Shown here piece after piece: positions 1,760 through 20,200 of a DNA stretch of 27,194 nt (positions are counted from its first letter, which is position 1; each line of letters starts with the position of its first letter). The translations under genes were made by a program, and so were the position numbers. This DNA comes from a virus. The stretch is taken from positions 1 through 27,194 of the IMG/VR virus record IMGVR_UViG_3300017751_000173; one strand, written 5' to 3'. The notes below the pieces were generated by a model. The model saw only the letters and a program-made list of their open reading frames with translations. It was not told the DNA's origin and did not search any database.

Positions 1760-2179
1760 ATGGCTATTTCACAAGTGTTATGTACATCATTTAAAAAAGA
1801 GCTACTAGAAGGCACACATAACTTCGGCTCGCATACTTTTAAGGTAGCTTTGTATACTAACGCTGCCACGTTAAATGCGGACACTACTGCGTATTCTACA
1901 GATAATGAAGTATCTGGCACTAATTATAGTGCTGGTGGAGTTACGCTTACAGCTAGTACAGTAGCTAGTGGTGATGGTGTAGGGTTTGTTAATTTTTCTA
2001 ACGCTACTTGGGCAAGTAGTAGTTTTACGGCTAGGGGTGCTTTAATATATAATTCTAGTCAGAGTAATAAAGCAGTCATGGTATTAGACTTTGGCGACAA
2101 CAAAACAAGTAATAACAGCACGTTTGCGGTAGCTATGCCTGCTAATACGTCTAGTACAGCACTTATAAGGATTACATAA
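1760..2179 (+). CDS. Small phage structural protein (marine phage family)
   Basis: This is a 139-residue, beta-rich, Ser/Thr/Ala-rich protein. It starts MAISQVLCTSFKKELLEGTH and continues with HTFKVALYTNAATLNADT and later a GGVTLTAS strand. I recognise this as a small virion-protein family common beside fibre and neck genes in marine and cyanophage genomes. Its precise position in the particle (decoration, tail or fibre accessory) is not known to me. A purine-rich stretch (AGAGAGGG) ends about seven bases before the ATG and is a good Shine-Dalgarno. The stop codon overlaps the start of the fibre gene by one base (TAATG), so it is likely made in step with that fibre and may act as its partner. 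It has only one Cys and no signal peptide or membrane segment. Confidence 0.6.
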   Translation: MAISQVLCTSFKKELLEGTHNFGSHTFKVALYTNAATLNADTTAYSTDNEVSGTNYSAGGVTLTASTVASGDGVGFVNFSNATWASSSFTARGALIYNSSQSNKAVMVLDFGDNKTSNNSTFAVAMPANTSSTALIRIT

Positions 2180-3627
2180 TGAGTACATCTTACACAAACA
2201 ACCTTAAACTTGGTAAGCCTGCTGCGGGTGATACTGGCTGGGGTAATACCTTAAACGCTGAAGTCACTGACATGGTGGAAGAAGCCATTGCAGGCATAAG
2301 AACCATAAACTCTTGGAGTTCGGGTACTCCTGCGGTTCATACTCTTACTACAGCTAACGGCACTACGTCAGAGGCTAGAGCCGCTATATTAACGCTAAAA
2401 GATACTACTAGTGATATAGGCACTACCGCGCAACTAATTGTACCTAACGTATCAAAATTATATTGCATAATTAATGAGACAGGCCATACAGTAACGGTAA
2501 AAACTGCCTCGGGCTCTGGAGTTTCTGTACCTACAGCTAAACAGTTTAATGTTGTGTGTGATGGCACTAATGTTATTGAGCAAGTTAATTATCAAGGTGC
2601 CGCCGACGTTAATACTCTAACAACTGCAGGGCTTGCAACAGTTAATTCGCTAGTAATAGGCTCCTCTGGGACACCAGTCACTCAGATTGCTGACGAAGAT
2701 GCTATGTCTTCCGATAGCGCTACAAAACTCGCTACTCAACAATCAATCAAGGCGTATGTAGACAATAACTCAACATACCACCGACAAGCTAACTACTTTG
2801 CGTGGGATGTACCGACTTTTAACCAGAGTACCAATGTAACATCATCCCCTCCTAAGTTTCACGTAGCAGATGGCGCTAGTGCTACGTTAGTTGAGTTTGA
2901 ATTACTTCGCCCATCGCCAGCTACCGCATCGCGCCATAAAATAGACATTACGTTAATGGGGGACAAAGATTTTCCTAACCCCTCAAACCTAAATTACTCC
3001 ACCGGTTTTCAACAGTATTGCGATATAATTTACTATATCCAGAGAAAATCTAAACTAGCTACCGGTGTTGGCATAGGCACTAATTCTGTTGCGCAAGATC
3101 AGTTGGGGGCGGGAAACTCTTATTTTTATAAGATATACGTAAGCGGTGATGTTACTAGTGAACTAGATAATTTTAGTTGGATAGCAAAAACAGCGGCTCC
3201 GGCATCAAATGCCAAGTATCAAGTTATGAGTTACGAGTATGAGGTAGCCGGTAATAGAACGGGTATAGTATTTAACGGGGGCTCAGGCTCAGCTACGCCT
3301 TATACAGGCACGGGCAATAGTATTTTTGTTAGTAACACAGGCTTTACTGCTGTAGATAGTTGGCATACCGCTACCCATAGCATACCCTCTAATTCAGGAT
3401 ACCCATTCTATACTGGTTCTATGGGTGAATACTTTGCGGCTTATAGCGGCACCAACTTCCAACGCAAGTACCGCCTGAAAGATGTTCTTCCTCCTGTAGT
3501 AGTAAAACCTGAGTCTGCAGGTACGATAGAAATGAGAATAGAAGTAACCTGCGGTGTTTTGGGCTCTGACGGAGAATATTACTTCCAACAGGCCACTATA
3601 GACCAAACAACTATAGGGAGAGATTAA
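2179..3627 (+). CDS. Tail fibre-like protein
   Basis: This 482-residue protein has the N-terminal signature LKLGKPAAGDTGWGNTLN followed by AEVTDMVEEAIAG. I recognise this as the virion-attachment end of many marine phage fibre or tail proteins. Residues about 50-150 are beta-rich (a TLTTANGTTSEARAAILTLK stretch, then Val/Thr strands). A segment near 165-195 resembles fibre linkers (SDSATKLATQQSIKAYVDN). The C-terminal 280 residues are rich in aromatics and Gly/Ser and probably form the receptor-binding or shaft part; I do not recognise a specific fold there. A second, unrelated fibre-like gene lies at 9010, so the particle may carry two fibre types. The last codons contain a run resembling part of a T7-family promoter (see findings). 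Confidence 0.65.
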   Translation: MSTSYTNNLKLGKPAAGDTGWGNTLNAEVTDMVEEAIAGIRTINSWSSGTPAVHTLTTANGTTSEARAAILTLKDTTSDIGTTAQLIVPNVSKLYCIINETGHTVTVKTASGSGVSVPTAKQFNVVCDGTNVIEQVNYQGAADVNTLTTAGLATVNSLVIGSSGTPVTQIADEDAMSSDSATKLATQQSIKAYVDNNSTYHRQANYFAWDVPTFNQSTNVTSSPPKFHVADGASATLVEFELLRPSPATASRHKIDITLMGDKDFPNPSNLNYSTGFQQYCDIIYYIQRKSKLATGVGIGTNSVAQDQLGAGNSYFYKIYVSGDVTSELDNFSWIAKTAAPASNAKYQVMSYEYEVAGNRTGIVFNGGSGSATPYTGTGNSIFVSNTGFTAVDSWHTATHSIPSNSGYPFYTGSMGEYFAAYSGTNFQRKYRLKDVLPPVVVKPESAGTIEMRIEVTCGVLGSDGEYYFQQATIDQTTIGRD

Positions 3628-3629
3628 TC

Positions 3630-3836
3630 ATGGAAGAGAATAAAGAAGCCCTACTTAAACTAGAAGCCCATGAAAGAGAGTGTGCTCAGCGTATGAAGAA
3701 CATACAGTTTCAACTAGATACGGTGGATAAGCGTTTAGATCAGGGTATGCATAAGTTTAGAAATATTGAGCGTTTATTATGGCTTCTTTTTCCGGTGATT
3801 CTAGGGGCAGATGCAATTGCTCAGAACCTACTCTAA
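3630..3836 (+). CDS. Small tail-anchored coiled-coil membrane protein
   Basis: This is a 68-residue protein. Residues 1-45 are a charged helix with heptad character, and residues about 48-62 (RLLWLLFPVILGAD) form one short membrane segment close to the C-terminus. That is a tail-anchored topology with the charged part most likely in the cytoplasm. Size and position at the head of a set with a holin and an endolysin suggest a role in lysis, for example a holin accessory or antiholin, but this is inferred from context. GGGAGAG at 3617-3623 lies about six bases before the ATG and serves as a good ribosome binding site. The next gene starts 26 bases before this one stops, in another frame, so translation of the two is probably linked. 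Confidence 0.6.
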   Translation: MEENKEALLKLEAHERECAQRMKNIQFQLDTVDKRLDQGMHKFRNIERLLWLLFPVILGADAIAQNLL

Positions 3837-4449
3837 GATTTGTTTATTACTGTTCAGCTCCGTTGTTTTTGCTAACAACCAAGAGGGTAGCCTTAACACC
3901 TACCACGGCGAGAATAGCGTAGCTAATAGTAATAATAGTACTAAAGATGACTCAGTATCTAATACTTACAATGGTGCGGGGTCTTCTTCTGAAATGCCTG
4001 TTGGTAGCGCTATAAGTCCTAGTTATATGTCTAATGGCATGGATACTTGTTTAAAAGGTACGGGTGGGTCACTACAGACTGTAGGTGTAGGATTTAGTAG
4101 TGGGGGATATAATGTTGATCCCGAATGTAACCGGCGTAGAGACGCAAAAGTATTGTCTGATTTGAACATGAAAGTAGCCGCTGTCGCTAGGATGTGCCAG
4201 TCAGTAGATGTGTGGAAATCTATGTTCATTTCTGGTACGCCATGTCCTATACTATCTAATGGTAAACTTATAGTTGGTAAGCGGGCGTTTCTTATGATGA
4301 AACAAAACCCCAAAACTTACATCCCAGATTACAGTAAAAAAACTAGAGAGTGGTATAATACAATACTTAAAATAGGAGAGAGCGATGTCGATGAAGAAGA
4401 AGATGATTTTACCTCTATTAGCGCTAAGTACCGCAGCTCACTCCAGTGA
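3811..4449 (+). CDS. Secreted phage protein with Sec signal peptide (PSYMS family)
   Basis: This 212-residue protein has a Sec-type signal peptide: basic start, hydrophobic core KICLLLFSSVVF and a likely cleavage after Ala21 (VFA then NNQ). The mature part begins with an Asn/Ser-rich linker (residues about 22-60). A compact domain follows with AISPSYMSNGMDTC and a helical segment (LSDLNMKVAAVARMCQ). Cys80, Cys106, Cys129 and Cys145 could form two disulfides outside the cytoplasm. I recognise this as a family widespread in marine phages near holin genes; its function is unknown to me. The start overlaps the previous gene by 26 bases with AGGGG just before it, at a tight spacing of three bases. 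The C-terminal tail is acidic (DVDEEEDDFT) and is read from the same DNA as the next gene's signal peptide. Confidence 0.65.
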   Translation: MQLLRTYSKICLLLFSSVVFANNQEGSLNTYHGENSVANSNNSTKDDSVSNTYNGAGSSSEMPVGSAISPSYMSNGMDTCLKGTGGSLQTVGVGFSSGGYNVDPECNRRRDAKVLSDLNMKVAAVARMCQSVDVWKSMFISGTPCPILSNGKLIVGKRAFLMMKQNPKTYIPDYSKKTREWYNTILKIGESDVDEEEDDFTSISAKYRSSLQ

Positions 4450-5233
4450 GTTAGACAACTTAGTTAACACGTCGTCGGCTATTGTAAACCAACTTGATAA
4501 AGGTATCGCGTATGTGGGTTCTGCCACTGAGTATTCTCATCTTGGTACTGCTATGTCTGATGGCAGTGTTTCAGAGTCCGCGCATATTACCTCACAACAG
4601 ATCCAAGCATACAATGATGCTCTTAGTAATATGGCTAATTACATGCCTTATGGCGATGTCCGCGCTGTCCTAAACGAACGTGCTATTACTGAGTTAGAGC
4701 TTATGGATACGGCCATTGACACATTTACAGAAGCAGTTGTAGAAATGGTGCAGGTTGTAGAAGTAGCTGAGCTGGCAGAGACAGCGGCTACCCCTGATGA
4801 AGAAGCTGCCGTACAAGAATTTGTGGCTAACAACCAAGAAGTTCTAACTATTAGCCAAGAAGAAGTCACTGAGTATAATCAGTCTATAGATGATATTGAG
4901 ACACACGCTAACAACGCGAGTGCATTTATTGCCGTTGCCGAAAACACTGCGGCAATAGATTTCCTACAGCAGGGCGCAGAGAATAACAATACTACTGCGG
5001 AGCAAGCTGTAGTTACGTATTCAGCTAACAACCAGTGGGTAAGTATGCAGTGGGCGGGGACTAACAATGCTTCTGCTGTATATCTAAACGGGAACGATAA
5101 CTTTGGTTTAGATGTATACGCCACACAAGCGGAAATATTAGTTGCAGGCCAAGAGTCTGAGTTTTATTTAACTGGCCCTACTGCACAAGGATATAGCTGC
5201 TTTATGTATGGAGATTGTAATTATGAGCCTTGA
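4385..5233 (+). CDS. Secreted, mostly helical phage protein of unknown function
   Basis: This 282-residue protein starts MSMKKKMILPLLALSTAAHS, a clear Sec signal peptide with a basic n-region and a probable cleavage around Ala18 to Ser20. The mature part is acidic and helical up to about residue 200, with long Ala/Glu/Val runs (VVEMVQVVEVAELAETAA) suggesting an extended or coiled-coil rod. A beta-like C-terminal domain of about 75 residues ends in two Cys (272 and 278) that could pair. I do not recognise the family. It is predicted to be exported during infection and lies between another exported protein and membrane/lysis genes. A role in envelope disruption, or a change to the host surface such as superinfection exclusion, is possible. 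AGGAG at 4374-4378 supports the start at 4385; a second in-frame ATG at 4391 is an alternative. Confidence 0.6.
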   Translation: MSMKKKMILPLLALSTAAHSSELDNLVNTSSAIVNQLDKGIAYVGSATEYSHLGTAMSDGSVSESAHITSQQIQAYNDALSNMANYMPYGDVRAVLNERAITELELMDTAIDTFTEAVVEMVQVVEVAELAETAATPDEEAAVQEFVANNQEVLTISQEEVTEYNQSIDDIETHANNASAFIAVAENTAAIDFLQQGAENNNTTAEQAVVTYSANNQWVSMQWAGTNNASAVYLNGNDNFGLDVYATQAEILVAGQESEFYLTGPTAQGYSCFMYGDCNYEP

Positions 5234-5699
5234 GTCTAGCGAACTGACGATTGGTGGTCAGACGTTTAAAGGGGCTTGGATTGCTGTAGTATTAGCTATT
5301 GGTTCTACTATTGGCGGTGGGGTATGGACTGCAAGTAGTTTGTACTCTAGACTAGAAGCTGTAGAGGCGGTACAAATACCAAATATAGTGCCCCTAGAAG
5401 AAGAAGTATTGTTGATAAAGCAAGAATTAGAGGCTAATGATGTATCTAAGTTACAAGGTAAACTAGCGGAATTAGGCGCTAACTTAGTAACTATAAAAGA
5501 CCAACAATCCGGACTGTTACTTATAAAACAACAAGTTACTGATGTAGAAAAGTCAGTAACAGAGATGCAAACTGTTGTTCAGAAAGCAGAGATTGTTGTT
5601 AAGGCGGTAGAAAACTTTGAAGGAGATATAAAAGTTTTAAAGCGTGAAATACAAGATTTGTGGGATGGTATGGACGAGTTATACAACCCACTAAAGTGA
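5223..5699 (+). CDS. Membrane-anchored coiled-coil protein, possibly lysis-related
   Basis: I place the start at the ATG at 5223 rather than the in-frame ATG at 5208. GGAG at 5210-5213 sits nine bases before 5223, and the overlap with the upstream gene then falls to 11 bases. The resulting 158-residue protein has a single membrane segment at about residues 18-38 (AWIAVVLAIGSTIGGGVW). A long charged helix with coiled-coil character follows to the end, including repeated Leu/Val/Glu/Lys heptads at about 60-145. One N-terminal membrane anchor with a long helical rod outside is the general plan of an inner-membrane spanin or a structural partner of the holin. I see no lipoprotein partner, so the spanin idea is only contextual. 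No known family is recognised. Confidence 0.6.
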   Translation: MSLESSELTIGGQTFKGAWIAVVLAIGSTIGGGVWTASSLYSRLEAVEAVQIPNIVPLEEEVLLIKQELEANDVSKLQGKLAELGANLVTIKDQQSGLLLIKQQVTDVEKSVTEMQTVVQKAEIVVKAVENFEGDIKVLKREIQDLWDGMDELYNPLK

Positions 5700-5706
5700 G
5701 GTATAT

Positions 5707-6078
5707 ATGTTACAACATCTTATAGGCCCTATAACTAATATAGCTGGGGGCTACCTAAAGAACAAAGCGGAAGAGAAACAAGCTAAGCATAAAGCCAAAA
5801 TGAAGGTCATTGAGAATGATGGTGAGTGGGAATCTAAAATGGCTGATGCCTCTGCCCATAGCTGGAAAGACGAATTTTGGACTATTGTACTTTCAGTGCC
5901 CATTTTTATGATTGGGTATGCTATTGTGGTTAACGATATAACAGTCATAGATAGAGTAGAGCAAGGGTTTGTCGCTCTTAGTAATTTACCTGAGTGGTAC
6001 CAATACTTATTGTTTATCGCCATATCAAGTAGCTTTGGTGTTAAAGGTGTTTCTAAACTAATGAGCCTAAGAAAATGA
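5707..6078 (+). CDS. Holin, GTA/3TM-type
   Basis: This 123-residue protein matches the pattern of the holin family named for gene transfer agent release (GTA holin, 3TM). It has an N-terminal amphipathic part, a Lys/Glu-rich stretch and a SWKDEFW motif at residues 52-58. A membrane segment follows at about 57-75 (VLSVPIFMIGYAIVV), with a second at about 97-115 (QYLLFIAISSSFGV). Holins of this type form lesions in the inner membrane at a set time and let the endolysin reach the cell wall. The next gene encodes the peptidase and overlaps this one by four bases (ATGA), the classical holin-endolysin pairing. GAGG at 5698-5701 lies five bases before the start. Only two clear membrane helices are visible; the N-terminal amphipathic part could be a third. 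Confidence 0.8.
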   Translation: MLQHLIGPITNIAGGYLKNKAEEKQAKHKAKMKVIENDGEWESKMADASAHSWKDEFWTIVLSVPIFMIGYAIVVNDITVIDRVEQGFVALSNLPEWYQYLLFIAISSSFGVKGVSKLMSLRK

Positions 6079-6422
6079 GTTTAAAGTATTTTAAAGTAGA
6101 AGATTTTAACTGTCAGGAAACTGGTGAGAATGAGATGTGTCCTGACTTTTTACAGAAACTTGATGCACTACGTGAAGTGTGTGGGTTTCCATTTATTGTA
6201 ACTAGTGGGTACAGATCGCCTAACCATAGTATTGAAGCTGCTAAGGCCAAGCCGGGAACACATGCACAAGGTATTGCTGCAGATATTAAAGTGACTGGTG
6301 GTGCACAGCGTATGTCTATTATACGTAACGCTTCTATTATGGGCTTCAATGGTATTGGGGTTGCCAAAGGTTTCGTACATGTTGACACGCGAGAGACTAC
6401 CCCCGTAGCTTGGAAATACTAA
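6075..6422 (+). CDS. Endolysin, M15A-type cell-wall peptidase
   Basis: This 115-residue protein has the motifs of the M15A peptidases (hedgehog/DD-peptidase fold), which include phage endolysins cutting peptide bonds in peptidoglycan. SGYRS at residues 44-48 is followed by THAQGIAADI, with His63 and Asp70 as the first two zinc ligands, and by FVHVDTR, with His102 as the third ligand. The spacing fits the family, and the length of about 115 residues is normal for the single-domain form. No signal peptide is present, so release would rely on the holin just upstream. Whether the cut is at D-Ala-D-Ala-type or L-Ala-D-Glu-type bonds cannot be told from sequence. The Shine-Dalgarno is weak, and the ATGA overlap suggests coupling to the holin. 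Confidence 0.88.
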   Translation: MSLKYFKVEDFNCQETGENEMCPDFLQKLDALREVCGFPFIVTSGYRSPNHSIEAAKAKPGTHAQGIAADIKVTGGAQRMSIIRNASIMGFNGIGVAKGFVHVDTRETTPVAWKY

Positions 6423-6423
6423 T

Positions 6424-9009
6424 ATGCCATTAAGTAAAGTCCAGTTTAACCCCGGTATAAATAAAGAACTAACTAGATATACCAACGAGGCCGGTTGGAG
6501 CGACTGTAATAAAGTTCGTTTTCGTCAAGGCTACCCTGAAAAAATTGGTGGTTGGACTAGACACGGCGTTAATACGTTTACAGGCGTTTGTAGATCTCTG
6601 CACCAATGGTTAAGCCTCGGGAGTATAAAATATACCGGTCTTGGCACTAACCTAAAATTTATGGTGGAGCAGGGGCAAAACTACTACGATGTAACGCCTT
6701 TACGTGAAACTGTGTCTTTGACCGACAAAATATTTGTTACTAATGGTTCTACTACAGTAAAAGTGCAAGACCCTAATGGGGGTTTTACTCTAGGCAGTTA
6801 TCTTACAATTGCTGGTAGTGCCGCTGTTGGTGGTATATCTGCAGATGCTCTAAACAAAGAACATGTCATAACGAGTGTAGGTTCTTCGTTTACCCAAAAT
6901 TGTCTCTACGGCAATGGTGGCCCCGGGGTAACACACACAGGAAACGTTGATATAGTTGTAGGACTTCCTGTAAGTGGCCCCAACATCCCTGCGGGAGCGT
7001 TTATAACAGCAATAACAAGCTCAAGTGGGTTTAACCTGAACGTTGTTCCCTCGGGGGGCTTACAACAAAATGACTTAACTTTTGATGGTAGTAAACTCTT
7101 CTCTATACAGGCAGATTCAGCAGCGACTAGCACTCCCGCTAACCCGGGTGGGGGCACTTTCACTATAGCGTATCAGGTTAACGTAGGGCCGGACTTTCAG
7201 GTACCAGTAGACGGCTGGAGTTCTTCTGCTTGGAACGAAAGCACTTTTAATGGCGGTAATCCCGGTGGTGAGTCTCTACGGGTGTGGAATCAAGCTAACT
7301 ACGGCGAAGATTTAGTTATAGGGCCTCGTGGTGGGGAGTTGTATTATTGGGATACAAGTGCGGGTTTGACCACAAGAGCTATAGCCCTAAAAAACGTACT
7401 CCATACTAGTACGGTTGCGCTGTCTCAAACATCCACAGGGAATATAGGTACTGGCCTTCCGGGGATTACCGACTTAGACCCCAACGTAACGCCAAAAATT
7501 AGAGGTGGCGCGGTAGTTACATGTACCACAGCAGGTAAGATTGCCGCAGGCACAACAGTTTTATCGGTAATGCCGAACAATACGGTAGTTAACACAAGTG
7601 CTAATCCGCTAGACACTGTAAATGGACTAACATATGTATTTGATGGTGATCCTATATCAGTTACTAAAGACTCTACGGCAATAACCGTATTTGACCCTAC
7701 ACTGGAATTTGCTTATAAAGTTGGGCAATATGTCACTATAGCTGGGGCTACAACCGTAGCGGGAATAACTAACACAGTTATAAACGCAAGACATAAGATA
7801 GCATCAGTGGACTCTGCGGCTAATACTTTTACTACAGAATCTATAGCGGGCGCTAACCCTGCTACTAGTACAACTTCTGGGGGCGGTGCATCTGTTACTT
7901 TGCAGTACGAACTATCCGCTGAAGTCCCCATAGTACAAGATCATTTGTTAGTGTCTGACGCTAGTAGGTTTACTTTTGCTTTTGGGTGTAACGCGTTTGG
8001 AGATGCCACTGAAACACAGAATCCATTGTTACTACGTTGGTCAGACCAAGAAGATGTTTATGATTGGCGACCACGTTCAACTAATCAAGCAGGGAGTTTG
8101 CAGTTATCGCAAGGCGCAGAGATAGTTACAGCCATACAGTCACGGCAAGAAATATTGGTGTTCACAGATTCTGCGTTGTACTCGTTGCAGTATGTTGGAG
8201 CGCCAGTAGTATGGGGTTCTCAATTGGTTGGGTCGAACATGTCCATAGCTTCATCGAAGGCCGTTGCGTACGCCAACGGAGTAGCGTATTGGATGGGCAA
8301 AGAAAAGTTTTATAAATATGATGGGTCAGTCCAACCACTAAATTGTGATGTTAGGAAGTATGTATTTGATGACTTAGATAAAGATCAGTACCAACAAGTA
8401 TTCGCCGGTACGCTTGAAGAGTTCCACGAAATATGGTGGTTTTACTGTGATTCTCAACGTGTAGCGCCAAACAAGTATGTAGTGTATAACTACTTGGAAG
8501 ATATTTGGTATATAGGCAGTATGGATCGTAGTGCTTGGTATGATTCTCCTATTAACGACTTCCCACTAGCTGCTACTGACACCTACAATTTAGTAGAGCA
8601 TGAGAACGGAAATGATGATGGGCAATACAGCACTCTATCGGCTATAGATGCATACATAACTTCCGGCCAATTTGGTATAGAGTCGGGCACTAGTTTTACC
8701 TTTATAGATAAAATTATACCTGACGCGTCTTTTGTAGGTTCAGACTCCGCTACTCCTAGTGTAAGCCTGTCTCTATTGGGTAGCAGTGAACCCGGTTCAG
8801 CTACTAATTCACCTACGTCTGAAGGGGGTGTAAACACTGGACAAACCGTGCTAGAATCAGGTACTGTAGACCAATACACCGAGCAGCTAAACGTGCGGGT
8901 GCGTGGCAGACAAATCGCCATTAAGGTAGAATCAGACTCATTAGGTACTAAGTGGCAACTTGGAACTCCTAGGTTGAACATGCGTCCGGATGGCAGACGA
9001 GGTAAGTAA
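6424..9009 (+). CDS. Large tail nozzle / stabilisation-like protein
   Basis: This 861-residue protein starts with VQFNPGINKELTRYTNEAGW, then CNKVRFRQGYPEKIGGW. This N-terminus is widely shared by large marine podovirus proteins annotated as tail or DNA-stabilisation proteins, in the role of P22 gp10 or T7 gp12: a nozzle built on a beta-propeller. A later stretch of repeated Trp-rich strands (LLRWSDQEDVYDW, then GMDRSAWYDS-like segments at residues about 530-720) fits a propeller. Two related beta modules are inserted (about residues 100-260 and 325-500; see repeat entry). The C-terminal 80 residues look like a separate beta domain ending in MRPDGRRGK. Its place between the endolysin and a fibre gene fits a tail component to which fibres attach. 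Assignment to a particular family is tentative. Confidence 0.55.
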   Translation: MPLSKVQFNPGINKELTRYTNEAGWSDCNKVRFRQGYPEKIGGWTRHGVNTFTGVCRSLHQWLSLGSIKYTGLGTNLKFMVEQGQNYYDVTPLRETVSLTDKIFVTNGSTTVKVQDPNGGFTLGSYLTIAGSAAVGGISADALNKEHVITSVGSSFTQNCLYGNGGPGVTHTGNVDIVVGLPVSGPNIPAGAFITAITSSSGFNLNVVPSGGLQQNDLTFDGSKLFSIQADSAATSTPANPGGGTFTIAYQVNVGPDFQVPVDGWSSSAWNESTFNGGNPGGESLRVWNQANYGEDLVIGPRGGELYYWDTSAGLTTRAIALKNVLHTSTVALSQTSTGNIGTGLPGITDLDPNVTPKIRGGAVVTCTTAGKIAAGTTVLSVMPNNTVVNTSANPLDTVNGLTYVFDGDPISVTKDSTAITVFDPTLEFAYKVGQYVTIAGATTVAGITNTVINARHKIASVDSAANTFTTESIAGANPATSTTSGGGASVTLQYELSAEVPIVQDHLLVSDASRFTFAFGCNAFGDATETQNPLLLRWSDQEDVYDWRPRSTNQAGSLQLSQGAEIVTAIQSRQEILVFTDSALYSLQYVGAPVVWGSQLVGSNMSIASSKAVAYANGVAYWMGKEKFYKYDGSVQPLNCDVRKYVFDDLDKDQYQQVFAGTLEEFHEIWWFYCDSQRVAPNKYVVYNYLEDIWYIGSMDRSAWYDSPINDFPLAATDTYNLVEHENGNDDGQYSTLSAIDAYITSGQFGIESGTSFTFIDKIIPDASFVGSDSATPSVSLSLLGSSEPGSATNSPTSEGGVNTGQTVLESGTVDQYTEQLNVRVRGRQIAIKVESDSLGTKWQLGTPRLNMRPDGRRGK
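6724..7926 (+). repeat. Duplicated beta module inside the nozzle-like protein
   Basis: Two protein-level repeats are visible. A first element (a VKVQDP-type strand, then GSYLTIAGSAAVGGI and a KEHVITSV strand) at about 6724-6890 returns as AITVFDP, GQYVTIAGATTVAGI and ARHKIASV at about 7670-7830. A second element containing an IPAGAFITAI / IAAGTTVLSV pattern occurs at about 6940-7060 and again at about 7490-7600. Gly/Ser/Thr-rich linkers separate them. Identity at the DNA level is low, so the duplication is old. Modules of this style are common insertions in large marine phage tail proteins; they probably form surface-exposed beta domains. Confidence 0.55.
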
Positions 9010-10995: not shown

Positions 10996-11222
10996 TACAA
11001 GTAGGGTATATAAAGACAGTAGGTGACGAAGAGGTAGACGTTATAGAAACTACTGTCGAAACGCCTGATATGGTGGACGTAAACACAGCGTTAGCTTCTT
11101 TGCAGACAACTTTGGCTGGTAGAACCGACATAGTAGAGCTATTTGCCCAAGAATACTTTGGTGAAGATGATGAAGACGGTAACAGAATTTACCATAAAGT
11201 TGCATTTCAGGATTTAATCTAA
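10992..11222 (+). CDS. Small acidic protein, unknown
   Basis: This is a 76-residue acidic protein (MIQVGYIKTVGDEEVDVIET, then a helical NTALASLQTTLAGR segment, an acidic EYFGEDDEDGNR turn and a final beta strand). I do not recognise the family. It overlaps the fibre stop by four bases and touches the giant gene by a TAATG junction, so the three are probably translated together. GAGG at 10981-10984 sits seven bases before the start. Candidate roles are a fibre chaperone, an assembly factor or a small virion protein; nothing in the sequence favours one. No signal peptide, membrane segment or Cys is seen. Confidence 0.55.
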   Translation: MIQVGYIKTVGDEEVDVIETTVETPDMVDVNTALASLQTTLAGRTDIVELFAQEYFGEDDEDGNRIYHKVAFQDLI

Positions 11223-14200
11223 TGTCTGATTACGTAGGCATGACCTTCGATGAAATAAAAGCTGCCAAATCTAAAGAGTGGATAGAGTCTGAAGAATACA
11301 CGCAAATCATCGCCGACCTTGAGCAGGCGAATCAGGTTCACAAGAGTGCACTAGACGCCTACCGTGAGGCGGGCGGAATTAAGGGCGACGAGGATTACCC
11401 TAGCTACTTTCCTACTCCGCACCCGGATTCTTGGTATAGTCAGCAGATTAACGATATTTACAATCTTTTGAACGTGAGCTTCAACGGTTTTTTTAAGGAC
11501 AGGATTCCATATTACGACCCCAGCCTAGTCCCTTACATGAAACAACTGCTTTTGGACGAATACATTCTACCTCCTCCTACGTCGGAGGGTCAAGCCAGAT
11601 TGCGCGCATGGAGTGATGAGGCCATACCCGGCATGGAGGGGGCATTTGCTGAGGCGGAATCTGCCCATAGTTATATTTTAGAATACGAAAGTCGTTACCC
11701 AAAACGTCAAGGCTACCCGCGAGTAAAAGAGCACTTCGGCGGTCACCGGAGCTTGATTCGCCCAACATATGAGGATCTGTATGGGGATCAAGGCCCGACC
11801 CTTGTGGATATAATGACAGAGACAGGGAACGCAAGAAACGGGATTAGTAAGTTAAAGAGTAAAGTCGAAAATGTTAACCAGCATAACACTAATGTAGAGT
11901 CACACTTTGAGTTTATAAAAAGTAACTACGACGAAGCAAAAAGGCTTGTAGAGGCCGATGAAAGCAGGAGGGGCGACTTTGCTACCGAAGAAGAGTATGA
12001 CGCGTGGTTTGCCACTCACGATTCAGATGGCGACGGAGTAAATAACGCAGATGATCCCTCCTTGTATGACGCGTCCGTGTCTGATGACGGTGCCTACGCC
12101 CGAAAATTTTCTGAATTAAGAGAATCTTTAGATTTTATTAATATGTACCCTCTTAAACGAGTGGTGTACGACCCAAGCGGCAACCCCACAACTGAGGAGT
12201 ATGATCCGGAATTCTCGGGGCTCCCCTCCAAATCTTCAACTGGGTTTGTATCGCCCGACGAATACGACCCCGCCAACGTTTTTACCTATGACTATGACGG
12301 CGATGGTATCCCTGATTCTAGCGAAGTAGGTATACCGGAGTGGATTAGACAACTGCCCGAAGAGACCGACGAAGAGTACAAGGCATTCCTCGAAGAATGG
12401 TTTGGTGATATGAGTATAGGTAATCCTCAATTTGGTTTTGTCGGCGCAGACCTTGATTACGAGGCGGACATCTCCTTAATTGATTACCTGACTGCGACTA
12501 GCGGTTGGAAAACCCCCGACATGGACGTAGATGGGGACGGCATAAACAACCTTGAAGATGAGTTTGCATTTTTATCGTCAGAGTGGGAAGACGCCGATGG
12601 TGATCGGCTTGGCGATAACGAAGCGGATGACGACGTAACCACGGCAGACCCAAATCGGATAGATACTGATGGCGATGGCGTGTACGATGTAGACGACGCT
12701 TTTCCAAACGATGCTACTGAAGATACTGACTCAGACGGGGATGGTGTTGGGGATGCGGCTGATTTTTACCCGGACGACTCGGATCGCCAAGAATTACAAG
12801 ATGCTGACGGGGATGGAGTGGATGACAGAGACGATGCTTTCCCCAACAACCCTAATGAGTACATTGACACGGATGGAGATGGTGTAGGTAATAACACTGA
12901 TTTTTACCCGGACGACCCGGATCGCGTTGAAATCAAAGATTCTGATGGTGATGGTTTACAAGACAGTCTAGACGCATTTCCCTATGACCCCGACAAACAA
13001 ACCTCAGCAGATGCAGATCCGGTAGAAGATTTAGCGCCAGAATTTAAAAATCCTAGTGCGAACACCGACGATGAGACCCAAGCTAGGGAGGCAGGAAAAG
13101 AAGCCGCGGGGGAGAAACTAAAAGAATACTCGGAACGGTTTTATACGCATTCTGAGTCGGGGTACTATACTCACCAAAATACCGAAGAACTAAAAGAAAT
13201 ATTGGGTATAACCGACATAGCTGAATTTACTAGTGGGCAAGCCCTTAAAACGGGCACTAACGCCATACTGTATCAGGGATATGAGCGACCGCTTACTGTA
13301 GACGAGGTGTGGGCCGGGTACCAAGCGATCATGAATGGGGCTAAAACCGTGTTAGACCCACGAGCCAAAGAGCTTATGAGTCAGGGCAGCATGTCCGGTA
13401 ATGCTAGGTTGATAGATTATGGCAAACTAGCGGTAGGTTCTCAGCCTTTTGTAGGTATGTCTGGCGCTTTTGATGATATAGGATATATATGGGACGGACA
13501 AGAATACTTTTATAAAACAAACGAAGACCCTAGTGTAAGGGCAAACATTAACTTAGCTAATCACGGGGCGTTTTTTGGGGATGGCCCTGCTAGCAGAGTT
13601 GACCTGACGAACGATACATACCTTGACATGGTTAAAGCGGGCGCTACTCCCATAATCTTTAATGGGTATTATGATGTTCTGTCTAGGGCCGCCATGCTAC
13701 CAGAACTTTTTGACTTTGAAATGTCTGGCAAAAATCCGTCTGACCAAACAGATGGTGTATGGAGACCTGAGACCACAACTCCGCAGATGTTAGTCTACTA
13801 TGGTTCAAAGGAAGGGGCTGAAAACGGGGACAACACTGACATAGTAGACATAGTAATTAACTATGATCGACAAACTGGGTATGGGTACAAGCTAGACAAA
13901 CAAGATAGGTTTGTAAGCGCAAAACAAGCGGGTACCGCAAAGGCCATGCAGTTTGGCCCGGAGGTAATGTTCTTAACAGCAACCACAACTCAGGCGAACA
14001 ATGGTTGGGAGTCGGTAACTCCCAGACTACGAAAAATAGCGGCGGATCAATACGTAAAAGACCATTCTCAAGGAGTATTGTGGGAATCGGGAGCCGTGAA
14101 GCCGGGACAAGCTATATCCTTTGACATCCAGACGGGCGAGAATCCCGATGGTAGTCCTATAACTCTGTGGGAAGGGTTTGAGACAAAGTATAATTTTATA

Positions 14201-17200
14201 GACACGGAGCATGGAGTACCTATACGCGCCGAAGACCCTACTGCAGGGTTAATACGTGGTGCGGATGTAATACCAAAAGCAGAGGATGTAGCAGAAGCAT
14301 ACTTCATGATAAAAAGCCCTGCCTTCGGAATAGATAACCGTAGGGGCGCCGACTTATGGTTAGCATCCCTAGACCCAGTAATACAAGATTTGTTTTTTGA
14401 TCGAGATTTTTATAACCCTAATGAAAAGGTGATAGACGATCTAATATCTACAGTGGGCGCTGCAAATATAGTAGGTGGTGGTGGGCTAGCTAGAATTGAC
14501 TCCGAGAAAATTAAGGCTTGGGGTAATAATTTTAGTGGCACAGCGGCGGAGAAAAAATCAGCAAAAGAGTTAACAGATGCTTTAGTAAGCTACCATGCCG
14601 GAGAATACCTAGAGTTTGGTGCCCTAAGCATAATAGTAGATGTTAATACGCTTGCAGAAATAGAGTTTGAGGCAGATCCTCCGGAGGTAGAGGAAGGCAC
14701 TTTCGTAGGTAAAGACACACTTCTAAATGAATTAGCAAGAAGTAACGCAATCATAGGTTTGCAGGATGCATGGAGTAATGCGAGCCTTCAGCCCGAATAC
14801 CAACGCATCCATGACAACGAGTTTAGGATAGAGCAGGATAGGCAGATAAAATACGCGATAGAGCGGTCTAGCGCTTACGTACTTAGAGACAGTGCGGGTC
14901 GTCCAGTACATGAAGGAATGTATTTTAATTCATCTGCTACTAGCTTGGGTGGCTTCGTACCCCCTACCACTTTTGGTACTTCTGACGGGTACCCTACAAT
15001 TATACAGTCGCTGTTATTCGAAGAGAAGTGGTGGATACAGGCGTTTCAGTCTTCGGTGGTAGGTAGGTTTGAACCCCCGATGTATATGGACGTGCCAGAA
15101 GAGAACCAAGCGCAGTTATGGCCGGGGGAAGCGAGTGGTGAGGAGTTGTGGAGAGACACTTCGCGGCTATACATGAAGTTGCCTTCCGCTGCGCCCGTAG
15201 TTAGGTCTCCTGCCCTGCAGCCCCGCGGAGACCTTATGGGCAAAGATGACTCTACCTATGTGGGTTCTCAGTTTGACCTAATAGCTATGGATGGCCCTTA
15301 CCAAGCGTACAAAAAAGCAATAGAGGAAGGAAAAACAGAAGCTCAAGCTCAAGCAGCTGCAGCCGCAGTGCCCAACCCAAATGATCAACTACTTGCGACT
15401 TGGGCTGGCATGGGGGAAGACAGGTCTGAGCGGCGTAATCAGTTTCTAGGCGCTATCAACGAGTCAGTGTACTCTGACGGGGGTTGGGATGTCTCCTCGG
15501 GGGGCTGGCCTACAGACTTATACGCCCAAAACGCTCCCAACGGCGGGGTATGGATAGATATATCTAACGGCATGGCTCCCATAGGCGCTTATACCATGAT
15601 GTATATAGCACAACCCCCACTAGTAGACGCGGTAACTGGGTGGTCTAGCCCTGTAGGCAAACTTATCTCTACTACTTTGTCTCTGGCTTTCCCTCCACTT
15701 TACTTGGTGGTTCAAGGCCTACGAGCCGCTAATGGGGAGACACTAAAAACAAGTGACTGGATAAGTATTGTAACCGCGGGACTAAAAGTAGGTGGTAAGC
15801 TGAAAGCAGGCACTACTAAAGAAGGCGCGGAAACTGCGGGTGAGACAGCTAGAGAGGCAGCTGAAGCAGAAGCTATAGCGGATGGGTTTAATGGGCAGGC
15901 AGTTACCTCTATGGGCGATAGTGCTTACAGCGCCGCATACACAACTGCTATTAATGGTATAGGTATAGCAGGGTTAACTGCAAAACAAACCGTAGCGCTT
16001 ATAAATGTAGCGGGTGGGCAGAATCCCGGCACTGCCTTATTAACTTCTTTTGGCCCAGATTACCTAGAAAAAGGGTTTTCGAACCTAGGAGTAGATACTT
16101 CTCTTTATACTAACATGAGCCAACCTGTGAAAGACGGGTTTAATGTGTTCTTGGCCGAACGTTTAGACGGCAACAGTTTTTCTGATTCGTTAAGACAGGG
16201 CGGAGTAGAGTTCTTTGCAGAATACATATCTGAGAATGACCTAGTAGACGAAATAAAATTAATAGCTGAGGGTTTTATAGACGACCTAGGCCCCGCTATT
16301 TCGGCAGTGGGTGACTTATTCAACGAAAGTCAGTTGAGTGATGCTCTTGATGCGGTGCTTGATCTAGTGCCAGAGAGTGTTGTAGAAGAGTTGTCGGCCC
16401 TTTTGACTAGTACGGGAGAAGCGTTAGATCCTATACTAGACTTCGCAGAGGCGAGCATAGATCTTGTAACGGATGTGGTTGTAGAGCCACTGTCAGATTT
16501 AGTATCAGGTATTAGTAATAGGGTAGATTTAGCAGTAAACGGCGTGGTGAACTTATTTCCTGATGGGCTGCCAGAGGCGGTGGATGCGAAAATAACCGCT
16601 ATTGTTGACGGGCTAAGTGGGGCGTCTAAAATCTCATTTGAAAAATTGCCGGAAGCGTCTAAAAAAGCCTTAGAGACTAGTGTAGCCCAACTCGTTGTAA
16701 ATGGAGAGATAGACAATCAAGGACTAGAAACGGCGTTTACTAAAGAACTAATAACGGCAGAAACCGTAAACGATCTAATAGACTCTAGCGAGGGTAAGAC
16801 AAAAGATGTTCTGATGGCCATAGGCCCGGGAACACTAACCACTGCTATGCGTGCGTCTATAAACATGGGGCTTGCGGGTGGTAGTGTCGGTGGCGCATTT
16901 ATACAGACTATTGCTGCCGCTACAGCTAACGCACTTAAATATGCGGCAGACGTTGGGGGTATAGAGGGATTAACTCGAGAAATTAGTCAGTTCCAAGATA
17001 ATATTTCTGGGCAACAAAGACGCGTAGAAGATGCCGCGGCAGAAGTAAACTCTAAAGACGAGGAAGTGACCGCTAAGCTATTAGAAATAGAGGCTATAAC
17101 TACGGATATAGAAGCGCAACGAGCAAGGTTGTCCGAACTGTACGAAGCGGCTATAGCTGAAGGAGCTACTGAGGCTGATCGTGTAGCGTTTGAGAGCTAC

Positions 17201-20200
17201 CAAGAAAACTTTACTGCTTCTTTACCTTACCTTGAGACGGACATAAACAACATAAAAGGAGAGTTGGCGGGCATAGAAGAAGAGTATGAAGTAGCCTTGG
17301 GGATATACAATGACAACATAGACCTGTTAGAACAATATTCTCGAGATACAGATCCCAAGTTACAGCTTGAATTTTCTAACATGCACGTTGCGGTAGCAAA
17401 CCAACTAAACCAAGACTTCGGTGCCACGTGGCAACAATATGCTCAGGTTAATGGGCTTGGGGAAGGCGCTACTATATTTGATGTTGCGGAGCACTATATA
17501 TCTCAAGGGTATGTAGACAGTGTACCTACCACAGTTGAAGATTATAATGCCAGAATAAACTTAGCTACTAACGCGTTTGTGGATAATGTAGTTGCAGACG
17601 CGGGTATTAATTTGGCCGAGCTGCCTCCCAACAGCCGAGCGGATATACGAGCGGCAATACTAAACGAGGTGAATACTTTCGCTGGCGTCGAAGGCGTTAC
17701 CCCCCTACAAATGCTAGAAACTATGCAGGATGACCCCACCTACCGCGATGGATTTAAGGCAGGTACTGAGTTTGATGATGTAATCTTGCAGGCGTACAAC
17801 CAGTCTTATATTACCGACGATGGCGAGCCCCTAAATTTTACAAGTTTGGCAGAGGTAGAAAACTACGAGCTAGAGCAGCGTGCTAACCAGTTCATTAATG
17901 CGTACCTCCCCATAGACATTAATACTGGAGCTCCTGTTGACCCAGAAGAGTACAGCAAATACCTCACCGACCTTATTGAAGGGCGGTTGTTTGTTGCGTT
18001 TGATGAAAGTGGTATGTATTCGTGGGACGAAGCTACACAAACAATAAAATTTAACACCCTAACAGGTTTACAGGAAGTTGTTGACGTTGTCCCGGGAAAA
18101 ACACTTTCTCAGATGGCAGCAGAAGACCCTATATTCTATGTACAAACCTTGGGGCAGTTAGAAAATAATGCCAATGCACTTGATTTGGTAGCAAAGGTAC
18201 AAGAAGAAATAGGCGAGACTTTTGAAATTCCTAACTATGCTGATACCGTGCTTGGCGTGCCCGATTCAGAGCTGCCTTGGATAGTAAGAGTTTCTAGAGA
18301 CTATATGCAAGACATAGCGGTAACACGCCAAGAATACTTAGATAAAGTAGAAGAACTAGAATCTTTTGAAGGCCCACTAACCCCTGAACAGGAATTAGAG
18401 TTAGAAGAAACTAGAGGCGCTTACGAAACAGCCGACCGACAGTTAATGACTGCTTACAATGTTATAAATGTTGGCGAGAACATGGTAGGGGCTTACAACA
18501 CAATATACCAAACTTTTGGTGTGGCGGGACAAGAAGGTAGGGCTAGGAAGGAAGGCGAAATGGCTATGCTCAATGCTATACAGCAGGGCATGGATACCGA
18601 AGAAGCTAAAGAACTAGGCGCTAAGGTTACTGAAGAACTTCTAAACGCGATAGATTACTCCACACTAGCAGACAATGAACTTAATCGCACGTTAACCATG
18701 CTAGAGGGTGTAGCCAAAGAGTTCGTACCCGAGACATACACAAAAGAAGTAGAGGAGATGTATGCTCGTTGGGATGAAGCCGAGACTTTTGGGGAAGGTG
18801 TCGCAGCAGTATTCGGTTCTATAGCAGCTACTCCAAGGGCTTTTTGGAACGAAGTTATAATACAAGAGCTTGGAGAGACTGCTATACAACTAGCTACCTC
18901 TGGGGGTTTGGGCCTTGTAACTAAAGAAGTAGCTATGCGACAGGCGGATAATATACTTGCAGAAATGACCGCCGTTCAGATAGGTACAGGTGTTTATACT
19001 GCTAGCGTGGCGCAAGATGTAGCGATGGAGTACGGACAAAATGTAGCGGAAGTATACGACACTACTATGTCTTTGTTATTTACTAAAGACGAGTATGTAA
19101 ATCCCCCGCAATACATAGCCGATCAGGGCGAGGACGCGGTACAAACGTACCGAGAAGATTTAGAGCAAGGGTATAACCAAATAGCTTTTGACACCTCTGT
19201 AAATGCAGGTACTTTCGCTATGGCTACGGTGCTAGCTACATTACCGTTTGAGGGCGGCTTAGATAAGCTACTATCTAGAAAATTCTTTGGTGATGTTGGG
19301 TTAGATACACTAGAGTTAGTAGCGGAAGACACAAATTTGCTACAAAATACTATTGGTGATTACCTATCAGTAATAGGCAAAGAAAGTTTCGCAGAGGGTG
19401 TACAAGAAGGTCTTACTGTGGGGTATGCCGAGAACGCATACTATAACTTAGGGTTTACTGACCGCCCAGCTGCCGCTCAGGTAGGCGTAGGTATGACTGT
19501 GGGTAGTATAGCAGGTGCAGGTACTACGGCGATTATAGCTCCTATAGGGTACCCAACTCCACAAGCGGAGGTTGCTAGCCAAATAAACGACCCTATAGGC
19601 AGGATACTTGTCACTACTAATGATGAAGTATATCAGGCTATTGAGTTGGGGGATGTGCCTAAAGTTAATGAATTAATAGCCTCTATTGGTTTAGCCACTG
19701 TTATTCCCCTGAACATAGAGCTACTAAATGCCACGGACGACAGTTATATATTAACCCCAAACGAAGTTGTCGCGGCTTATGAGGGTATGGGGCTAGAGCC
19801 CCCAGAAGGCTTTGTAGATACTATAGCTACTCAGTACATAGTAAATGATGAGACTGGGGAAGTTACAGTGTCAAGCCCCGTGACTGACAGTGATACGCTA
19901 GAGCAACAACTTGCTGAGCAGTGGGAATTAGCGTTTCCTTCGGATGCTGATGGTGATGGTGTACCCGACCGCACAGACGCATTTCCTGATGACCCTGCGG
20001 AGACAGTTGATACTGATGCTGATGGTGTAGGTGACAATGCGGATGCCTTTCCTGCAGATCCCGCTGAAACACTGGACTCAGATAGTGATGGTGTAGGCGA
20101 CAACACTGATGTATTTCCTACTGACGCTTCTGAGTACATTGATACCGATGCTGATGGTATGGGTGATAATGCTGATGAGTTACCTAACGATCCTTTATAT

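Follow-up and report, generated by a model that had tools for sequence, protein, structure and literature searches.

A conserved three-gene unit encoding exported and membrane-anchored proteins in the lysis region of marine phages, with a possible role in outer-membrane disruption

Among described phage systems, the two-component spanins Rz/Rz1 are, in phage T7, located in the slot before the terminase gene. A recognisable spanin is missing from 91 of 677 surveyed phages (~13%), and the means by which these phages breach the outer membrane have yet to be explained (PMC6139136). Marine phages also carry exported, envelope-acting genes, such as the curli (type VIII secretion) cluster of pelagiphages (PMC9599517). 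The present analysis concerns six open reading frames (ORFs) on the plus strand at positions 3630-6422 of IMGVR_UViG_3300017751_000173, an entire IMG/VR record of 27,194 bases (the window), which encode a tail-anchored protein, two exported proteins (A and B), a membrane-anchored coiled coil (C), a holin-like protein and an endolysin. The genes for A, B and C form a conserved unit that recurs in other phages, mostly close to lysis genes.

The A-B-C unit and its genomic setting

The initial annotation, made from the sequence alone, had described these ORFs as a six-gene overlapping lysis module. Their coordinates and sizes, together with the gene overlaps of 26, 65, 11 and 4 bases, were verified, and all six are real genes under purifying selection, with ratios of nonsynonymous to synonymous substitution rates (dN/dS) of 0.03-0.21 for each gene against three relatives. 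Since, in addition, the gene order and the A/B overlap are kept across about 80 window-type loci, the cluster represents more than chance. As a cluster in the lysis region the module stood, but the conserved unit is A-B-C and not all six genes, as phages differ in, and swap, the genes for the tail-anchored protein, the holin and the endolysin. C follows A in all 152 loci with a long enough contig, with an exported ORF between them; in the loci lacking C, the contig ends 752 bases or less from A, and where the B profile fails another long ORF fills the gap, mostly with a signal-like start. The grouping of C with the exported pair, a conserved tail of C and a lipoprotein in many relatives all go beyond the initial annotation.

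The claim that a large exported pair belongs to the lysis region was also borne out. A holin- or endolysin-like gene lies within 3.5 kb of the unit in 72 of the 87 evaluable loci, defined as those with C present and at least 1.5 kb on either side, lysis genes being detected with the queries of this analysis only; holin-like genes missed by the first queries are present in loci L138, L150 and L158. By a lenient count, at least one member has such a neighbour in 19 of the 20 evaluable clusters at 70% identity. A holin-like gene is adjacent to the trio in 65/87 loci. The cassettes around A-B-C otherwise differ, the holin type varying while A-B-C stays, and fibre genes adjoin the trio in many loci. 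In the podophages HTVC202P, Baldr, S28-C10 and L075, A-B-C immediately precedes the gene for the large terminase, as Rz/Rz1 does in T7.

The A query retrieved 80 IMG/VR loci and a profile search at least 596 relatives; these loci are non-independent, falling into 33 clusters at 70% identity. In GenBank, tblastn with four A queries found A in 11 of 50,697 records, all from marine or spring-water phages; five further records, from Achromobacter phages, came from a fifth, distant query. No cellular A-B-C family was found, the genome scan yielding three contigs of metagenome-assembled genomes (MAGs) only. We found no paper describing A-B-C, and where the literature on the individual phages was consulted, the passages found make no mention of its genes. 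Several public annotations in the group of loci L082, L083 and L087 are wrong: C is labelled lysozyme (CRP-207 gp73, CRP-810 gp51), A is assigned to the OmpA family (CRP-810 gp53) and B is named TonB (ctXG6705).

Features of the encoded proteins

Sec signals, judged by eye and checked for recurrence in relatives, were found in A (...SVVFA|NNQ) and B (...TAAHS|SEL), and they recur among the relatives of both; the mature parts contain four and two cysteines, respectively, those of B at the C-terminus, in agreement with the initial annotation. The cysteines of A at residues 80, 106, 129 and 145 are invariant in 66 sequences, and the blocks of its core between residues 101 and 190 were modelled by AlphaFold2 with a mean predicted local distance difference test (pLDDT) score of 92-97. 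A matches phrog_20531, of unknown function (E 1.2e-10). Comparison of its model with the PDB gave no meaningful match (Foldseek E 2 and VIA Z 2.4 at best), and the matches in a viral structure library were other uncharacterised proteins, known A relatives among them.

B was modelled with a mean pLDDT of 89.6 and long helices at residues 21-53, 92-121 and 158-185; it has no PHROG family and nothing above the Pfam cut-off. A fold identity for B from structure matches was rejected, the hits being generic helical ones only (Foldseek E 0.14; VIA Z ≤7.3, which is in the noise range for helical models). The window-type and pelagiphage-type B proteins show no detectable homology (hhalign 0.1%), and 'B' is therefore better understood as a position holding a variable protein. 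Other phages have, at this position, proteins with a jelly-roll plus an E/P-rich region, a Cys-rich region or a different N-terminal domain, and these include exchangeable binding-type domains (jelly-roll; CBM_4_9, weak). ORFs of ~740-790 amino acids with a common 'FNFTFYG'-type N-terminal domain occupy it in L165, L166, L168 and L161.

C combines an N-terminal membrane helix with a periplasmic coiled coil, both seen in its sequence and in an alignment of 21 relatives, and this is the architecture by which an inner-membrane spanin (i-spanin) is recognised. An ATG at 5208 is also present upstream of its start, and the relatives favour 5223. Its family match is phrog_736, of unknown function (E 1e-4). 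The motif [NS]P[LMI] ends 106 of 109 distinct C tails, counted after removal of one false match, a C-profile hit in L072 that is actually a fibre gene. The exceptions are L162 (DPY), L173 (NPY) and L156 (GSLKGK); L156, the sole clear loss of the motif, is also the sole locus found with a real Rz/Rz1.

Many IMG/VR relatives, as well as CRP-207, CRP-810 and a Manatee Spring phage, have a gene for a lipobox protein of 70-95 amino acids that is located at the 5' end of A or overlaps it. The mature part of this protein can be aligned with the A core (hhalign 96.6%, E 5e-10), which identifies this small lipoprotein, at the level of profile comparison, as a paralogue of that core. A heuristic lipobox scan, which does not prove absence, found no convincing conventional outer-membrane spanin (o-spanin) in nine complete phages (CRP-207, CRP-810, HTVC023P, HTVC202P, HTVC115P, HTVC033P, Baldr and two Manatee Spring phages, Mosig being left out) and several IMG/VR contigs; it recovered the A-like lipoprotein in CRP-810 and one contig and missed the CRP-207 copy. 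In the window, a scan of this genome fragment found no lipobox o-spanin, and no ORF among the module proteins combines a lipobox with a C-terminal membrane helix, as a unimolecular spanin would. There are no spanin PHROGs among the matches of A, B and C, and L156 is the only A-B-C record in which phrog_456 has a good match. With neither a lipobox o-spanin nor similarity to a spanin family found for the window, A-B-C is not classed as a spanin.

Among the flanking genes (Table 1), genes related to the tail-anchored one occur in 33 of the loci examined. The naming of a holin and an endolysin in the initial annotation fared unequally. The endolysin is firmly predicted to be an M15 peptidase from its profile matches and lysis context. 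The holin is better called a holin-like protein, from its position and topology: no Pfam family lies above the cut-off, the best PHROG family has no assigned function, and GTA_holin_3TM shows only marginal similarity (59% probability in hhalign, over no more than 23 columns). Relatives of this protein occur in 345 phage records, including PA11 and HMO-2011. In the lysis cassette of a MAG-derived phage (L226), a class 3 lipase (8269-9003; PF01764, E 1e-16) separates A-B-C from the lysozyme. Scanned for promoters and terminators, positions 2000-7000 gave signal at or below chance, and tRNA and Rfam RNA searches found none. Elsewhere in the window, positions 11222-22294 hold a single ORF of 3,690 amino acids with no Pfam or PHROGs match.

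Table 1. Position and main characteristics of the features in the six-gene cluster of the window (aa, amino acids)
Feature	Position	Strand	Characteristics
Tail-anchored protein, 68 aa	3630..3836	+	Cytoplasmic coiled coil, C-terminal hydrophobic stretch; outside conserved trio
A, exported protein, 212 aa	3811..4449	+	Signal ~3811-3873; N/S/T-rich stretch; Cys-containing core ~4042-4380
B, exported helical protein, 282 aa	4385..5233	+	Signal ~4385-4444; 65-base overlap with A
C, inner-membrane-anchored coiled coil, 158 aa	5223..5699	+	N-terminal membrane helix ~5274-5336
NPLK tail of C	5685..5696	+	Conserved [NS]P[LMI] motif at C-terminus
Holin-like membrane protein, 123 aa	5707..6078	+	phrog_2524 (E 5e-38), 'unknown function'
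Endolysin, M15 peptidase, 115 aa	6075..6422	+	PF08291 (E 1.9e-13); phrog_894 'endolysin' (E 2.5e-31)

Possible role of A-B-C and rival explanations

Directly supported for A-B-C are the linkage of the three genes, an exported or membrane topology as read from the sequence, a conserved tail, a lipoprotein paralogue and placement in lysis cassettes. The best reading, tentative but quite possible, is that the unit is a periplasm-spanning lysis module that fills the role of spanins although it is not one of them. In its favour are the strict linkage, the lysis neighbourhood in otherwise differing cassettes, the pre-terminase position in podophages (taken in HTVC111P and HTVC026P by a coiled coil and a small protein with a signal-like start), the i-spanin topology and near-invariant tail of C, the lipoprotein paralogue and the lack, in the lipobox scan, of a plausible conventional o-spanin. 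A, B and C would then be parts of one complex, made late in infection and acting at the last step of lysis, in which the outer membrane would be broken or fused after the endolysin has removed the peptidoglycan. C would provide the inner-membrane anchor and a coiled-coil rod into the periplasm, and its conserved NPL tail may dock on the exported partners; B would give length and, in other phages, also a binding domain, and the Cys-containing core of A may be the connector at the outer-membrane side. In the roseophage-like relatives, the lipoprotein copy of the A core could serve as the outer-membrane anchor. Disruption of the outer membrane by the exported proteins is plausible. The wider claim, which is possible if rather doubtful, is that A-B-C, with the A-like lipoprotein in one branch, constitutes a multi-protein outer-membrane rupture machine that is unrelated to spanins and widely distributed among marine phages, those of Pelagibacter and Roseobacter included, which would explain how some phages complete lysis without recognisable spanins.

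Several observations weigh against a lysis module of this kind. The window type carries no lipoprotein, this being present in the roseophage-like branch only, so its outer-membrane anchor is unaccounted for. In L156, Rz/Rz1 (5750-6423) directly follows A-B-C, and HTVC115P has A-B-C together with an alternative coiled-coil slot pair in the same cluster; the trio is therefore not simply a spanin substitute. By eye, A-B-C lacks recognisable lysis genes close by in L106, L113, L131, L135, L083 and L172. Distant A proteins are also found away from lysis genes in Achromobacter phages, with no B or C nearby. In phiAxp-2 (L221), A was detected by hmmsearch (E 5e-10), B and C have no match within the examined 50 kb, and two adjacent exported proteins, one of them the A relative, are encoded at 44598-45155 and 45216-45710, outside the lysis region. 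Three further Achromobacter phages have A relatives, which in phage 2-1 lie among nuclease and helicase genes.

The unrelated Achromobacter phages, in which an A relative sits beside another exported protein and among small or replication genes, would fit the main rival explanation, namely that A-B-C acts from within the infected cell to change its envelope and either blocks adsorption or DNA entry of competitors (superinfection exclusion) or remodels the surface, a site of action that the initial annotation had also proposed. The exchangeable binding-type domains of B in other phages and the coexistence of Rz/Rz1 with A-B-C in L156 point the same way. However, most copies of A-B-C lie beside lysis genes, an unexpected place for an early exclusion gene, and such a defence leaves the i-spanin-like C and its tail unexplained, so we regard it as unlikely. 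The same coexistence with Rz/Rz1 is consistent with A and B being accessory factors that weaken the outer membrane or its links to the peptidoglycan, adding to spanins or osmotic rupture and forming no complex with C. The variability of B and the lipase in the L226 cassette agree with this explanation, but the strict linkage of C and its conserved tail point to a single complex, which makes it quite improbable.

The frequent adjacency of the holin-like gene, and the periplasmic, Cys-containing nature of A, suggest another role, in lysis timing, in which the exported proteins would sense the state of the envelope and act on the holin via C, like the RI/T lysis inhibition of T4. Timing of this type appears improbable, given that the neighbouring holin type changes while A-B-C stays and that no antiholin family match was found in PHROGs or Pfam. 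The fibre genes adjacent in many loci would fit A and B being virion or tail-associated proteins that only appear exported, which is very improbable considering the recurrence of Sec-type signals in A and B of relatives and the membrane anchor of C. As a set of named genes with a short motif, the trio is common in marine phages, cultured ones of Pelagibacter and Roseobacter among them. Should A-B-C act in lysis, phages of very abundant ocean bacteria would possess a new mechanism; should it act in exclusion, annotation would have missed a conserved envelope defence.

Comparison with known systems

The exported proteins A and B differ from the pelagiphage curli cluster, as they have no Csg match in Pfam and the gene set is different. 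The tail-anchored neighbour of 68 amino acids, with its coiled coil and C-terminal anchor, resembles the XhlA-type lysis protein of PBSX, but nothing in Pfam, XhlA included, lies above the cut-off. A parallel in gene position is offered by pelagiphages of the HTVC111P/HTVC026P/HTVC019P type. The terminases of HTVC111P and HTVC026P are 95% and 81% identical, respectively, to that of HTVC202P, and the slot before that gene is occupied by an inner-membrane coiled coil together with a protein of 66-72 amino acids that has a signal-like start. In HTVC111P (L217, 3228-3811), the pair consists of the coiled coil and an exported protein of 72 amino acids (phrog_20984, phrog_24646), and it is a candidate for a previously unrecognised spanin-like pair of pelagiphages. 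Like the trio, this slot pair brings together a coiled coil and a small exported Cys protein before the terminase; unlike it, the pair has two genes instead of three, other sequences and no A/B homologue, and its own function is unknown. Compared with the Rz/Rz1 spanins, the trio stands apart in its two large non-lipidated exported proteins, its three linked parts, its conserved C-terminal tail and the lack of a spanin PHROG match. The two systems nevertheless have in common an N-anchored inner-membrane coiled coil, overlapping genes in the lysis cassette and the pre-terminase slot in podophages, and one branch of A-B-C also shares with Rz/Rz1 a small lipoprotein.
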